Below, in pieces: positions 48,122-57,194 of a stretch of DNA of 64,000 nt. The position numbers and the translations under genes are program-made. The notes beneath the pieces are model-generated. The model did not search any database. It was not told where the DNA came from and worked only from the letters and a program-made list of their open reading frames with translations. Position 1 is the first letter of the stretch. Each line of letters begins with the position of its first letter. The stretch is from Planctomycetota bacterium (lineage in GTDB: Bacteria > Planctomycetota > UBA1135 > UBA2386): NCBI GenBank assembly GCA_020849665.1, contig JADLFX010000013.1, positions 1 through 64,000 of the forward strand. Direction: 5' to 3'.

Positions 48122-50122
48122 ATGACCATCCTGGAACCCGGCGCCACCCCCCATCCGCCCTCGCCCGCGGCGGCCCTGCGCCTCTACGGCGAGATGCTGC
48201 GCATCCGGCGCTTCGAGGAGGAGCTGCAGCGGCTGGTCGGCGAGGGCAAGGTCGGCGGCACCACGCACCTGTGCATCGGCCAGGAGGCGGTCCCGGTGGG
48301 CGTGAGCGCCGAACTCGACCGGACCGACCTGGTGGTCAGCACGCACCGCGGCCACGGCCACCTGCTGGCCAAGGGCGCCCGCGCCGACCGGGCCCTGGCC
48401 GAGATCGCCGGGCGGGCCACCGGCTACTGCCAGGGCAAGGGCGGCAGCCAGCACGTGGCCGTGCCGGAGATCGGCCACATGGGCAGCAACGGCATCACGG
48501 GGGGCGGACTGCCGATCGCCGCGGGTCTGGCGCTCGCGCAGCGGCTGCGCGGCACCGGACGCTGCGTGGTTGGCTACCTGGGCGATGGTGCGGCGTGCAC
48601 GGGCAACTTCCACGAGACCCTCAACCTCGCGGCGCTGTGGCGGCTGCCGGTGGTCTTCGTCCTCGAGAACAACGGCTACGCGATGTCGATGCCCGTGGCG
48701 CGCGAGGCGGCATGCGCCAGCTTCGCCGACTGGGCCGGCCGCTACCGCGGGCTCGTCGCGCGCCAGGTGGACGGCAACGACGTGCTCGCGGTGCGCGCGG
48801 CGGCCGGACCACTGCTGGCGCGCGCGCGTGCCGGCGAGGGACCCGCGCTGCTCGAGTGCCTCACCTACCGCGCCTGCGGCCATTCGAAGAGCGACGCGCG
48901 CGTGTACCGCACCCGCGAGGAGGAGGCACTGTGGGCGGCGCGCGACCCTCTGCTCGTGCTCGCCGCACGCGCCGGGCTGGACGAGGGGGAGATCCAGCGC
49001 GCCCGCGCCGCGGCAGACGCGGAGATCGCCGCGGCCGTGACCTTCGCCCTCGGCTCGCCGGTGCCCGCGCCGGAGCTCGCGACCGCCCACCTCGACGTCC
49101 CCGCCGTGCCTGCGGCGGCGGCGCCGAGCGCCATCCCGCCCGGCACCCAGACCACGTTCACCGAGGCCCTGCGCGCCACGCTGCAGGGCGAGCTGGAACG
49201 CGATCCCGCGGTGTTCCTCATCGGCGAGGACATGGGCGCCTATGGCGGCGCCTTCGGCGTGACGCGCGGCCTGTTGCACCGCTTCGGCCAGGAGCGGATC
49301 CGCGAGACGCCGATCAGCGAGAACGGCTTCGTGGGGCTGGCGGTGGGCGCCGCCATGGGCGGCCTGCGCCCGGTCGCCGAGCTGATGTTCGGCGACTTCG
49401 TGACCTGCTGCATGGACGCCCTGGTCAACCATGCCGCCAAGATCCGCTACATGTACGCCGGCCAGGTGCAGGTGCCCTTCGTCCTGCGCATGCCGGTGGG
49501 CCGCCGCAACGGCTACGGCGCCACGCACTCGCAGAGCCCCGAGGGCTGGTTCCTGAACGTCCCCGGCCTCCAGGTCGTGTTCCCGGCCACGGTCGAGGAC
49601 GCCGTGGGCCTGCTGCGCACGGCGATCCGTGGCTCGGTGCCGGTGCTCTTCCTGGAGCACAAGCTGCTCTACCCCGCGCGCGGCGCGATGCCCGCAGCCG
49701 ACCACCTGGTGCCGCTGGGCCGCGCACGCATCGACCGCGAGGGCCGCGACCTCACCCTGATCACCTATGGCCACGCGCTGGGACTCTGCCGCACGGCCGC
49801 CGACCAGCTCGCGGCGCGCGGCCACTCGGTGGAGATCGTGGACCTGCGCAGCCTGGCCCCGCTCGACGTCGCCACCTGCGCGGCCTCGGTGCGCCGCACC
49901 GGCCGGGCCGTGGTGGTCCAGGAGGCCTCGCCGATCGGCGGCGTCGCGGACCGCGTGGTGGGCGCACTCGTGGCCGAGGTCTTCGCCTGGCTGCGCGCCC
50001 CGATCCTGCGGGTGGGCGCGGCCCACACGCCGGTGCCCTCGGCTCCGGCGCTGGAGGACGCGATGATGCCCGACGTCGCGTCGCTCCTGCGCGTGGCGTT
50101 GCCGCTCCTCACGGAGTATTGA
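48122..50122 (+). CDS. Fused alpha-beta E1 subunit of a 2-oxoacid dehydrogenase
   Basis: 666 residues joining two normally separate subunits. Residues about 15-320 are E1-alpha: RIRRFEEELQRLVGEGKVGG, HRGHGHLLAKG, and the TPP motif from GDGAACTGNFHE to LENNGYAMSM. Residues about 345-666 are E1-beta: FTEALRATLQGELERDPAVFLIGEDMG, ETPISENGFVGLAVGAAMGG and MPVGRRNGYGATHSQSPEG. A ~25-residue Ala/Pro-rich linker joins them. It would decarboxylate a 2-oxoacid and reductively acylate a lipoyl group. The substrate is not readable; pyruvate, branched-chain and acetoin types share these motifs. The lipoyl/acyltransferase gene starts 7 bases later. No classical E2 or E3 gene is adjacent. Confidence 0.92.
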   Translation: MTILEPGATPHPPSPAAALRLYGEMLRIRRFEEELQRLVGEGKVGGTTHLCIGQEAVPVGVSAELDRTDLVVSTHRGHGHLLAKGARADRALAEIAGRATGYCQGKGGSQHVAVPEIGHMGSNGITGGGLPIAAGLALAQRLRGTGRCVVGYLGDGAACTGNFHETLNLAALWRLPVVFVLENNGYAMSMPVAREAACASFADWAGRYRGLVARQVDGNDVLAVRAAAGPLLARARAGEGPALLECLTYRACGHSKSDARVYRTREEEALWAARDPLLVLAARAGLDEGEIQRARAAADAEIAAAVTFALGSPVPAPELATAHLDVPAVPAAAAPSAIPPGTQTTFTEALRATLQGELERDPAVFLIGEDMGAYGGAFGVTRGLLHRFGQERIRETPISENGFVGLAVGAAMGGLRPVAELMFGDFVTCCMDALVNHAAKIRYMYAGQVQVPFVLRMPVGRRNGYGATHSQSPEGWFLNVPGLQVVFPATVEDAVGLLRTAIRGSVPVLFLEHKLLYPARGAMPAADHLVPLGRARIDREGRDLTLITYGHALGLCRTAADQLAARGHSVEIVDLRSLAPLDVATCAASVRRTGRAVVVQEASPIGGVADRVVGALVAEVFAWLRAPILRVGAAHTPVPSAPALEDAMMPDVASLLRVALPLLTEY

Positions 50123-50129
50123 GCGGACG

Positions 50130-51707
50130 ATGGCCACCCTCCTGCGCGTCCCCCACCTGGGCACGGCCGAAGACGAGGTGCTGCTCGCGGCATGGAACGT
50201 CACGCCCGGGCAGACGTTCGCCAAGGGGCAGGCGCTGTGCTGCGTCGAGACCCTGAAGGCGTCGTTCGAGGTCGAGGCGGAGGCGGCCGGCGTCCTGGCC
50301 GAGGCCCTGGTCGCCGCCGGCGAGCGCGTCGCCGTGCACGCGCCCCTGGCGATCCTCACGGCGCCGGGCGAGACGTGCGACGCCCGCCAGCGCGCGGCGC
50401 TGCTGGCGGCGCAGCCCACGGCCCCTGCCCCGGAGGCCCCTGCCGCACCCGCGGCGGCGGCCGCTCCGGCGGCGGCGGCGCCCGGCGCCGCCCCCGCCGC
50501 GCGCACGCGGGCCCGCGAACTCGGCGTGGACCTCGCCACGGTGCGCGGCACCGGCCCGGGCGGCATGGTGCGCGTCGCGGACGTCGAGGCGGCCCACGCC
50601 CGCGGCGCCGCCGCCGGCACGGCGGGCGACGGCCGGCTCGACCCCGGGTTCGTGTCCTGGCTGCGGCGCGACGGCGAGGCGTTCGCCCGCCTCGCCTCGG
50701 GCTTCAAGATCGAGCTCTACCGCCGTCACGGCGCGCAGCTCGCCGGCGACGTCCACCTGGGGCCGGGCGCGCTCCTCCGCGTCGAGCGGCTGGTGCTCGG
50801 GCCCGAGGCGTACTTCGGCGCAGACACCACGGTCGACGCCGTGGAGTTCACGGCCGGGCCGCTGGCACACTTCGGCGCCCGCTGCCGGGTGCGCTGCCGG
50901 CGCATCGCGCTGGGCGAGAACGCGTTCTTCGCCGACGACGTGGAGATCGGCGGCGGCGGCGCCATGGACCCCGAGGCCGAGCTCGTGGTCGGCAGCCACG
51001 GCTTCGTGGGCGAACACGTGCACCTGAACCCCTGCCGCAGCCTGCGCCTGGGCGACGAGGTGGTGGTGTCGCGGGGCGCGGTGCTGATGACCCACTCGTT
51101 CGGCGGCAGCGTGCTGGCCGGCTTCCCCAATCGCTTCGCGCCGGTCACCGTCGCCGACCGCTGCCAGATCGGGATCGGGGCGGTGCTCTTCCCCGGCACG
51201 GAGATGGGCGAGGGCGCGATCCTCCTGAACGGCTCCTCCCTGGTCACCGCGGTTCCCGCGGGCCGCCTGTACGGCGGGGTGCCGGCCAGGGACCTGAAGG
51301 CCGCCGCCCAGCCGCTCTCCCCGGAGCGGCGCCAGGCGCTGGCCGGCGAGCTGGTGCGCGAGTTCGCGCGCCAGCTCCGCCTGCGCGGCCGGCAGGTCGA
51401 GGTCGAGGAACTCGGCGCGCGGCTCGAGGTGCGCGTGCACGCCGAGGACGGCGTGCATCGCCTGGGCTTCGCGCCGCGGCTCGGCGACCTCCCGGCCGCT
51501 GCGGCGGCCGAGACCGTGCTCGTGGCGATGGCCGCGTCCGCGGCCGAGCTCGCCGCGCTGCCGGCGGGCAGCCACGCGATCGAGCTGGCCACGCCCCGGA
51601 TCCACGGCGGCGGCGGTCCGCTCTGCGACGCGTTCCGCGAGTTCGTGCGCAAGCGTGGCGTGCGCCTGCACCCGCGCGGCTTCGCGTACCGGGGAGGGTG
51701 GCTGTGA
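50130..51707 (+). CDS. Hybrid lipoyl / subunit-binding / left-handed beta-helix acyltransferase
   Basis: 525 residues with an unusual domain order. Residues 1-75 are a lipoyl domain with the modifiable Lys in CVETLK43ASFEVEAEAAG. An Ala/Pro-rich swinging linker (about 82-120) is followed by a peripheral subunit-binding domain (about 122-157, RARELGVDLATVRGTGPGG), as in an E2. The usual E2 catalytic core and its HxxxDG motif are absent. Instead, residues about 185-392 are a hexapeptide left-handed beta helix ending GGVPARDLK, with the expected catalytic His at 322 (MTH322SFGG). The final ~130 residues form a mixed alpha/beta domain. The stop overlaps the next GTG (GTGA). Likely role: taking an acyl group from its own lipoyl arm to a sugar. 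Confidence 0.85.
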   Translation: MATLLRVPHLGTAEDEVLLAAWNVTPGQTFAKGQALCCVETLKASFEVEAEAAGVLAEALVAAGERVAVHAPLAILTAPGETCDARQRAALLAAQPTAPAPEAPAAPAAAAAPAAAAPGAAPAARTRARELGVDLATVRGTGPGGMVRVADVEAAHARGAAAGTAGDGRLDPGFVSWLRRDGEAFARLASGFKIELYRRHGAQLAGDVHLGPGALLRVERLVLGPEAYFGADTTVDAVEFTAGPLAHFGARCRVRCRRIALGENAFFADDVEIGGGGAMDPEAELVVGSHGFVGEHVHLNPCRSLRLGDEVVVSRGAVLMTHSFGGSVLAGFPNRFAPVTVADRCQIGIGAVLFPGTEMGEGAILLNGSSLVTAVPAGRLYGGVPARDLKAAAQPLSPERRQALAGELVREFARQLRLRGRQVEVEELGARLEVRVHAEDGVHRLGFAPRLGDLPAAAAAETVLVAMAASAAELAALPAGSHAIELATPRIHGGGGPLCDAFREFVRKRGVRLHPRGFAYRGGWL

Positions 51708-52483
51708 ACGCGCCCTGCGGGTACTCGCTGCCGCACTACCGCGACATCCTGCGCACGGCCAAGGCACGCTACTGGCTGCCACGCGTCCAGGACGTCGCCT
51801 TCGGCCTGCCCGAGCGCGACTTCTTCCTGGTGCGCCACGACGTGGACCTCACGCCGTGGGCCGCGCTGCGCATGGCCGAACTCGAGCATGCGGAGGGCGT
51901 GTGCACCACGTACTACTTCCGCCTGCACGCGCCGTTCTACAACGGCCTCGACGCCGCGGTGATCGAGGTGGTGCGCGCCATCGCGGACCTGGGCCACGAG
52001 GTGGGGCTGCACTACGAACCCGGCCACTTCCTGGCTCTCGGCCAGGACCCGGTCGAAGGCACGCGTCGCGACATCGCCACGTTCGAGGCGGCCACCGGCC
52101 TGCGCACCCGGACCATCGCCCAGCACCAGCCGGCGCAGGGCCCGCTGCTGGAGGCGATCGACCCGGACCGGCCCTGCGCCTACCAGGCCGAGCTGGTGCG
52201 CGCGATCCCGTACTTCGGCGACAGCGGGCACCACTGGCGCGAGGGCTGCATCTGCACCAAGCTCGGCGTGCACCGCCGGCTGCACACGCTGATCCACCCG
52301 CACGCCTGGGTGTACCCGGACCGGCCCTGGCAGGAGCTGCTGCGCGCCCACGCCGCCGACCTCGGCGCGCGGATCACGGCGGAGATGGAGCGCTACATCG
52401 CGGAGGTGGAGCGCTACCTCGCGCGGCGCGCCGAGCTGGACCGGGCGCGCGAGGCCCGCTACCGCACGCCGCCTACTGTTTGA
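51704..52483 (+). CDS. Polysaccharide-deacetylase-like protein (WbmS type)
   Basis: 259 residues from the GTG at 51704. The N-terminal strand motif FFLVRH45D46V47D48LTP corresponds to the metal/catalytic Asp pair region of NodB-type (CE4) deacetylases. GHEVGLHYEPGHF supplies further active-site His residues, and IAQHQPAQGP and HPHAWVYP follow. The phrasing is closest to WbmS-like proteins of O-antigen loci. It probably removes an acetyl group from an amino sugar or glycan, in the cytoplasm because no signal peptide is present. Coupled by GTGA to the hybrid acyltransferase. The last 11 bases overlap the convergent symporter gene. Confidence 0.82.
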   Translation: MNAPCGYSLPHYRDILRTAKARYWLPRVQDVAFGLPERDFFLVRHDVDLTPWAALRMAELEHAEGVCTTYYFRLHAPFYNGLDAAVIEVVRAIADLGHEVGLHYEPGHFLALGQDPVEGTRRDIATFEAATGLRTRTIAQHQPAQGPLLEAIDPDRPCAYQAELVRAIPYFGDSGHHWREGCICTKLGVHRRLHTLIHPHAWVYPDRPWQELLRAHAADLGARITAEMERYIAEVERYLARRAELDRAREARYRTPPTV

Positions 52484-55683: not shown

Positions 55684-56520
55684 ATGGCCGCCGCGCCCGG
55701 TGCCGAGATCGTGCTCAAGGACGAGCCATGGACCAGGGTGGTCCGCCGCCCGCTCTGCGGCCTCGACGTCGTGCACAAGACCTACCTGGTCCCGCCCTGG
55801 ACGCGCTGGCGCACCTTCCTGCTCACCTCGCGCGCGGGACGCGAGTACCGCAACCTCTCGCGGATCCACGCCTCCGGGGTGCCCTGCGTGCGCCCCCTGG
55901 GATTCGCGGAGGAGCGCCGCCTCGGCGTGGTGCGGCGCTCCGCGCTGCTCACCGAGTTCGCCCCCGGCACGCGCTCGTGGAAGCAGGAACTGCTCGACCG
56001 CCCCAGCGGCGATCGACGTCACGCGCGCGCGCGTCGCGTGCTGGCGGCCACCTTCGGCGCGCTGCTCCGCCGCCTGCACCAGGCCGGCTTCCTGGGCGCA
56101 CGGATCTCGCCCCGCAACGTACTGGTGCGCTGGCAGGACCCGGACCGGGCCGAGGCCTGCGCCATGCTGCTCTGCGACCTCCCCGCCGCCAGCGGGTTCT
56201 CCGCCAGCATCCTCGACCGGCCGACCGCCGGCATAGACCTCTTCGACGCCGCCTTCTCGCCGGGCCGGCGCGCCCAATTGACGGCGGCGGAGCGCTTCCG
56301 CCTGGTCCTGGCCTACGCCGCGGGGGATCGGAACCGCGCCCGCCAGCTCTGGCGCTGGCTGGCGCGGCGCAGCAAGCGCGGCAACGAGCTGCGCAAGGCG
56401 CTGCGCACCACGCTGGACAGCTACCTCGGACTCCTGGCACAGTGCCTGCGCCGCGGCCGCCTGCACCTGCCCCCGACGCGGGTGCCAGAGCTGGGCTGCG
56501 CCGGCGACCTCCTGCCATGA
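55684..56520 (+). CDS. WaaP/Kdo-kinase-like protein, probable pseudokinase
   Basis: 278 residues from the ATG at 55684. The family phosphorylates LPS core sugars with a eukaryotic-kinase-like fold. A VVHKTYL motif provides the ATP-Lys candidate, followed by RAGREYRNLSRIHASGVPCVRPLGF and a LLTEF hinge. The catalytic loop starts normally (L-H132-Q-A-G-F). Where the family has H-x-D, this protein reads G138-A-R140, while N145 is kept. A DFG-like D remains in LLCDLPAASGF. Loss of the catalytic Asp suggests an inactive or divergent kinase. It is divergent from the solute-binding gene (79-base gap) and coupled to the methyltransferase by ATGA. Confidence 0.78.
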   Translation: MAAAPGAEIVLKDEPWTRVVRRPLCGLDVVHKTYLVPPWTRWRTFLLTSRAGREYRNLSRIHASGVPCVRPLGFAEERRLGVVRRSALLTEFAPGTRSWKQELLDRPSGDRRHARARRVLAATFGALLRRLHQAGFLGARISPRNVLVRWQDPDRAEACAMLLCDLPAASGFSASILDRPTAGIDLFDAAFSPGRRAQLTAAERFRLVLAYAAGDRNRARQLWRWLARRSKRGNELRKALRTTLDSYLGLLAQCLRRGRLHLPPTRVPELGCAGDLLP

Positions 56521-57194
56521 GCGATCCGACCGCCTCCGGGCCGCGACCGATGTCGCAGGCCAAGCTCGACAACTACAACTCGCCGCGCGGCGCCACGGCC
56601 TACAAGTCCGACTACGAGCGCAAGCTGCACCGCAAGGTGTCCGACCGCTGGGAGCGGCAGATCTTCACGCGCTTCTTCGCGGTGGTCGGGCCCGTGCGCT
56701 CGATCCTCGACCTGCCCTGCGGCGCGGGGCGGCTGTACCCGCTCTTCCAGGACCACGCGGCCACCGTGATCGAGGGCGACTGGTCGTGGTCGATGCTCAA
56801 GCTGAACCGCGACGACCACTCGGCCGGGGCGCGCGGCTATGTGCGCGCCACGGGGCTCGCGATCCCGTTGCGTGACCGCGCGGTCGACATGGTGGTGTCG
56901 GTGCGGCTCTCGCACCACCTGGAGCGCGAGCCCGACCGCGAGCAGCATCTGCGCGAGCTGTGCAGGGTGGCCGACAAGGCGGTGATCCTCACCTTCTTCT
57001 CGCACTGGTCGTTGAAGAACGTGCTCCGCCGCCTCCGCTCGCCGTTCAACCGCAAGCAGCCCAAGAACACGCTGCGCAGCACCCAGGTGCGCAGGGTGGC
57101 GGCCGAGTGCGGGTTCGCGGTGCAGGCCCTGGTTCCGCTCTCGCGCATCGGCTCGGGGCACGTCTTCGCGCTGCTGCAACGCCGGCCGGGCTGA
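56517..57194 (+). CDS. Class I SAM-dependent methyltransferase
   Basis: 225 residues from the ATG at 56517. Motif I is SILDLPCGAGRLYPLF, followed by motif II VIEGDWSWSMLKLNR and motif IV-like RDRAVDMVVSVRLSHHLE, then LREL-C-R-V-A-D-K-A-V-I-L-T-F-F. The fold is that of UbiE/generic small-molecule methyltransferases. The N-terminus (KLDNYNSPRGATAYKSDYERKLHRKVSDRWE) resembles methyltransferases found with lipid or glycan modification genes, but the substrate is unknown. Coupled by ATGA to the WaaP-like gene, so both may act on the same envelope glycolipid. Confidence 0.85.
   Translation: MSDPTASGPRPMSQAKLDNYNSPRGATAYKSDYERKLHRKVSDRWERQIFTRFFAVVGPVRSILDLPCGAGRLYPLFQDHAATVIEGDWSWSMLKLNRDDHSAGARGYVRATGLAIPLRDRAVDMVVSVRLSHHLEREPDREQHLRELCRVADKAVILTFFSHWSLKNVLRRLRSPFNRKQPKNTLRSTQVRRVAAECGFAVQALVPLSRIGSGHVFALLQRRPG

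Follow-up and report, generated by a model that had tools for sequence, protein, structure and literature searches.

The gene set described here, conserved among some planctomycetes, suggests a route by which acyl groups of keto acids are put directly on a sugar and not on CoA, to which the known 2-oxoacid dehydrogenase complexes deliver them. Its three genes probably encode a 2-oxoacid-driven acyl-transfer system in which a lipoyl arm would pass its acyl group to an exposed sugar amine by means of a left-handed beta-helix domain. The interest of the set lies in a conserved operon in which the catalytic domain of an E2 is replaced by a sugar-type beta-helix and which is furnished with an E1 and a deacetylase of its own. 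The genes lie in a 64,000-nucleotide stretch of planctomycete DNA (the window, meaning the whole stretch analysed), with the following features:

48122-50122, + strand: E1 component with alpha and beta fused, a predicted ThDP-dependent 2-oxoacid decarboxylase (666 aa; PF00676, 2.2e-70; PF02779; PF02780)
50130-51707, + strand: lipoyl-PSBD-beta-helix acyltransferase-C-terminal domain protein (525 aa)
50142-50357, + strand: lipoyl domain (residues 5-76; Pfam Biotin_lipoyl PF00364, E 3.9e-14)
50256-50258, + strand: codon of K43, the predicted lipoylation site (motif E-T-(L/I)-K-A)
50370-50486, + strand: Ala/Pro-rich flexible linker (residues 81-119; mean identity 26%; mostly low pLDDT)
50487-50588, + strand: peripheral subunit-binding (E3_binding) domain, PSBD (residues 120-153; PF02817, E 1.1e-11)
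50745-51302, + strand: left-handed beta-helix (hexapeptide) acyltransferase core (residues 206-391; assigned from Hexapep matches, profile homology and model strands)
51093-51095, + strand: codon of H322, the predicted catalytic base (MTH motif)
51312-51704, + strand: C-terminal alpha/beta domain, probably part of the catalytic module (residues 395-525; pLDDT mostly 80-95 in the model)
51704-52483, + strand: CE4-fold (NodB-like) putative polysaccharide/sugar N-deacetylase (259 aa; AlphaFold pLDDT 86.8)

The open reading frame at 50130-51707 translates into the 525 residues reported originally, and its GC content by codon position (0.82/0.56/0.96) supports the + strand frame. A long antisense ORF was ruled out as a true gene by the codon-position GC and by conservation, and represents a shadow of the high GC content. 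The original prediction of an E2-like front end, comprising a lipoyl domain with K43, a linker and a PSBD, was borne out by the Pfam matches given above and by the invariance of K43 in 15 of 15 members. Foldseek matched the lipoyl domain with E2 lipoyl domains, e.g. 3crk_C at an rmsd of 1.3, and the AlphaFold model of the whole protein as a monomer (pLDDT 77) comprises a lipoyl barrel, disordered linkers and PSBD helices, then a series of short strands spaced like hexapeptide repeats and, at the C-terminus, an alpha/beta domain that is well modelled. K43 and H322 are conserved while the Ala/Pro linker diverges, and the front end is predicted to work like that of an E2. The PSBD is present in 14 of the 15 members and missing only in L034 (on the same contig as G018), which has kept the lipoyl domain, the beta-helix and the C-terminal domain; given this loss the PSBD appears to be dispensable, and PSBD-mediated docking of E3 or E1 would not be essential. 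At this PSBD-less member (L034:9980-11401) a gene for a PLP-dependent enzyme (PALP) follows the deacetylase gene.

Pfam detects no 2-oxoacid_dh core (PF00198) in the 525-aa protein, the HxxxDG motif is absent in all 15 family members and, because this defining catalytic core was searched for and found lacking, the protein is, as judged from its sequence, not an E2; a degenerate ordinary E2 was ruled out on the same two grounds. Residues 185-400 yielded no profile of a normal 2-oxoacid dehydrogenase fold, and the model displays hexapeptide-type strand turns. The proposal that the E2 core had been exchanged for a hexapeptide acyltransferase carrying H322 thus held up, as Hexapep matches were obtained for every member of the family (15/15, best 1.7e-11; the repeats at residues 338-370 are sub-threshold, at 3.6e-5, in a Pfam search with the query protein alone) and as H322 is invariant (15/15), its MTH motif aligning with the TH of maltose O-acetyltransferases. 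The core also shows profile homology to standalone LbH acyltransferases, and in NCBIfam the front of the protein matches E2 proteins while residues 285-391 match WcaF-type polysaccharide acetyltransferases. With the whole model as Foldseek query the lipoyl domain fills the top matches, and no independent beta-helix match was obtained. By its repeats and catalytic His the protein belongs to the hexapeptide acyltransferase superfamily, and its homology is better captured by speaking of a family of sugar-type beta-helix acyltransferases to which the front end of an E2 and a partner E1 were added. Residues 395-525 have no match in Pfam or the PDB. These last ~130 residues, kept in all members with a FREF-x-RK-x-G-x-RL...GGWL block, had been regarded as an additional domain; they are probably part of the catalytic module, and not a domain added to the fusion, because standalone Streptomyces acyltransferases appear to share them, the C-terminal profile alone being weak there.

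Relatives of the protein comprise 14 full-length sequences, 48-58% identical, from other planctomycete MAGs and one, 43% identical, from a distant planctomycete genome. Conservation counts out of 15 refer to the main set, and the distant genome, G143, is counted apart as a sixteenth locus. Among 21 related genomes six encode the lipoyl/beta-helix protein, which is full-length in five and interrupted by a contig end in one. A scan of the GTDB collection returned 14 full-length loci, all in MAGs and 12 of them titled Planctomycetota; four of these 14 are the same contigs as relatives among the 21 related genomes. In a sampled search of the phylum the protein was found in 3 of 149 genomes, including G143, which belongs to another part of the phylum, and because of these few and distant occurrences it appears to be rare but old and widely scattered in the phylum. 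Searches of plasmids, phages and viruses gave no homologue with the full architecture.

The operon runs from the E1 fusion through the 525-aa protein to the CE4-fold gene, with a gap of 7 bp between the first two genes. The E1 fusion retains an intact ThDP motif (GDG-x-NN) and its nearest solved relatives are PDH E1 proteins, yet it scores below both curated PDH-specific cut-offs (299 bits against 393.85 for TIGR03182 and 317.7 against 321 for NF006667); with an E1 nearest to that of PDH yet under the PDH-specific scores, the acyl group is probably short. Nine of the 15 loci have an E1 gene immediately before that of the lipoyl protein (the contig of L027 retains just the end of E1) and two others have one at a distance of 5-7 kb upstream, while the remaining four are without it in the available upstream stretch (2.5, 10, 10 and 4.5 kb), L026/G017 and L030 having none within 10 kb. 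In G143 a distant version of the operon (L046:7626-12213) has a pair of overlapping genes, one for the alpha and one for the beta part of E1, so that the gene order (alpha, beta, lipoyl protein, deacetylase) is kept even where the subunits are not fused. Of the 21 related genomes, the six that encode the lipoyl protein are also the only ones with an E1 orthologue (at least 64% identical), an overlap with a chance of 1 in 54,264 (the ways to draw 6 from 21) if phylogeny is ignored; in G017 the two still co-occur, though each has a contig to itself. The identities of the three proteins, compared pair by pair, are correlated (r 0.71-0.74), which shared species history alone could explain. The operon contains no sugar-nucleotide genes. 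Since E3, an E2 core and a lipoate gene are all missing from the three-gene unit, both E3 and lipoylation must be supplied from outside it. In the genome, LipA, E1, E2 (HRIVDG) and E3 stand together in a canonical PDH locus on contig C64, and a Kgd-type fused OGDH is encoded on contig C53.

Some further neighbours were recorded. At L028:3158-7760 indolepyruvate:ferredoxin oxidoreductase-like and ADP-forming acyl-CoA ligase-like genes are divergent from the unit, and at L032:3859-7863 a Pls/PosA-type NRPS-like gene ends 21 bp before the E1 gene. In the window a methyltransferase gene comes after a Kdo/WaaP-family kinase gene (55684-57194), and the two may form a pair for the modification of glycolipids.

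The CE4-fold gene has a GTG start and overlaps the preceding stop by 4 bp, and it lies directly downstream in all 16 loci (the 15 of the main set and G143), usually with an overlap of 4-10 bp, the gene in L024 being interrupted by the contig end. Its product has no Pfam match, PF01522 included, and the putative CE4 assignment rests on the predicted fold and not on a sequence family: the top Foldseek matches of the model are nearly all CE4 deacetylases (best E 1.5e-4, TM 0.4-0.6), and the invariant motifs R-H-D-V-D, G-H-E-x-G-L-H and T-L-I-H-P are CE4-like but differ in spacing. In L025, L031 and L032 the stop codon of the deacetylase gene is followed within 5 bp by the start of a glycosyltransferase gene, and L022 and L023 have glycosyltransferase genes in the neighbourhood. 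Distant plasmid relatives of the CE4-fold protein have genes for hexapeptide acyltransferases, LpxD-like or other, in their vicinity, within polysaccharide clusters from Halorientalis, Haloprofundus and Sphingomonas; at L006, L007 and L008, in such haloarchaeal and Sphingomonas clusters, the relatives are annotated only as hypothetical proteins. The acyltransferase module in turn is homologous to standalone Streptomyces proteins, which in two inspected cases adjoin a PIG-L de-N-acetylase gene. Because CE4 relatives lie near hexapeptide acyltransferases, and relatives of the module beside PIG-L deacetylases, the pairing of a deacetylase with a beta-helix acyltransferase recurs with different combinations of folds. 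The Streptomyces plasmid clusters at L002:9092-10942 and L005:9139-10990, where the PIG-L deacetylase is beside a homologue of the beta-helix module that stands alone, also include genes of the AMP-ligase and aldo/keto reductase types.

In the proposed mechanism E1 would use ThDP to decarboxylate a 2-oxoacid (by similarity a pyruvate-like one) and would reductively acylate the lipoyl group on K43 of its partner, while the CE4-fold protein would strip the N-acetyl group from a sugar or glycan precursor and so expose an amine. The beta-helix domain, with H322 as base, would then transfer the acyl group from the dihydrolipoyl arm straight to this amine, and not to CoA, after which a housekeeping E3 docked on the PSBD would re-oxidise the dihydrolipoyl group. 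This model draws on the domains, the conservation of K43 and H322, the linkage with E1, the constant CE4-fold neighbour, the adjoining glycosyltransferases and the clusters of CE4 relatives with LpxD-like genes. The deacetylase as operon partner lends support to the change of acceptor put forward in the original prediction; direct transfer from the lipoyl arm is a proposed step. Whether the unit represents a class of complexes, built around a beta-helix and bypassing CoA on the way from 2-oxoacid through ThDP and lipoyl arm to a deacetylated amino sugar or similar amine, is a question on which we consider the chances evenly balanced.

The model of transfer to a sugar amine leaves one observation unexplained, namely that in two well-separated lineages (L023 and L034) the three-gene unit adjoins a benzoyl-CoA degradation cluster, i.e. 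genes of a pathway of CoA thioesters. These genes (L023:12454-20131 and L034:3-7599) include had and oah above curated cut-offs in both loci, and bcrC and bcrB above theirs in L023, where they were tested; the cluster is downstream of the unit in one locus and divergently upstream in the other. CoA could still be the donor because solved beta-helix relatives use acyl-CoA, and the neighbouring cluster speaks for a reading in which CoA is the acceptor, the beta-helix being a convergent E2 core that takes the acyl group from the lipoyl arm to CoA to form a special acyl-CoA within an alternative 2-oxoacid dehydrogenase complex. In known complexes CoA receives its acyl groups by way of this combination of E1, lipoyl domain and PSBD, and many beta-helix acyltransferases bind CoA; we nevertheless regard this reading as unlikely, as the constant partner is a CE4-fold deacetylase and not a CoA-using enzyme, the nearest named families are sugar and polysaccharide acetyltransferases, and the genome already has a normal PDH.

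It is slightly less probable again that the beta-helix acylates a sugar from ordinary acetyl-CoA, as typical beta-helix sugar acetyltransferases do, with the lipoyl domain and PSBD merely a scaffold that holds the protein near a PDH-like complex for local channelling. The PSBD could indeed tether the protein to E1 or E3, but L034 retains the lipoyl domain and not the PSBD, and the invariance of K43 within its motif implies a working lipoylation site; moreover, a dedicated E1 with an intact ThDP motif co-occurs, in an operon that has no E2 core to make CoA esters. On a par with the scaffold is a reading in which the acceptor is another nucleophile, such as a sugar hydroxyl or the amine of a lipid, peptide or natural product, and the CE4 protein an amide or ester hydrolase acting on the same molecule. 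Both CE4 and beta-helix enzymes take varied substrates, Streptomyces homologues of the module are found in natural-product-like clusters with AMP-ligases or aminotransferases, and L032 has its NRPS-like gene directly upstream, yet glycosyltransferases adjoin the operon in several loci and the CE4 relatives sit in polysaccharide clusters. The possibility that unrelated genes were joined into this ORF by an assembly error or a frameshift, raised by its unusual architecture and by the original prediction itself, is refuted and has a negligible likelihood because 15 further genomes, from several families, encode the same architecture at full length, with identities of 43-58% and no internal stops.

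Should transfer from the lipoyl arm to a sugar amine prove true, the lipoyl swinging arm would serve biosynthetic acylation directly, as ACP does for LpxA and LpxD, and the operon would offer a modular donor system. The model predicts CoA-independent acylation of glycans in planctomycetes, a prediction that is testable.

No description of the lipoyl plus beta-helix architecture, and nothing usable on lipoyl-to-ACP precedents, was found in the open-access literature, and novelty of the architecture is provisional within that scope. The E2 of pyruvate and other 2-oxoacid dehydrogenase complexes resembles the 525-aa protein in its lipoyl domain, Ala/Pro linker, PSBD and upstream E1 gene; here, however, the CAT core (PF00198, HxxxDG) gives way to a beta-helix, the E3 gene is elsewhere and a deacetylase gene comes next, whereas 2-oxoacid dehydrogenase complexes are stated to be invariably built around the E2 catalytic domain (PMC10156792). 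E3BP, or protein X, of mammalian and fungal PDC is similarly E2-like, with a lipoyl domain and PSBD and without an active E2 core, but the core of fungal E3BP is a reduced, structural E2 fold (PMC10156792) and the core found here an unrelated and apparently catalytic one. The hexapeptide acyltransferases WcaF, maltose O-acetyltransferase and NeuD/PglB share the repeats, the position of the catalytic His and a GGVPA-type ending, whereas the present protein has its own lipoyl arm, a PSBD and a conserved 130-residue C-terminal domain. In the C2-unit loading of naphthyridinomycin (NapB/NapD) and quinocarcin (QncN/QncL), PDH-like proteins pass a ThDP-derived unit to a non-CoA acceptor; that acceptor is an acyl carrier protein, and these systems are not known to have a beta-helix core. 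With LpxC/LpxD an N-acetyl sugar is deacetylated and then re-acylated by a beta-helix enzyme fed by a swinging-arm carrier, and the system proposed here, compared by its genes and its inferred chemistry, would follow the same order of deacetylation and beta-helix re-acylation, with a CE4 fold in place of LpxC and with a lipoyl arm and a 2-oxoacid in place of acyl-ACP.
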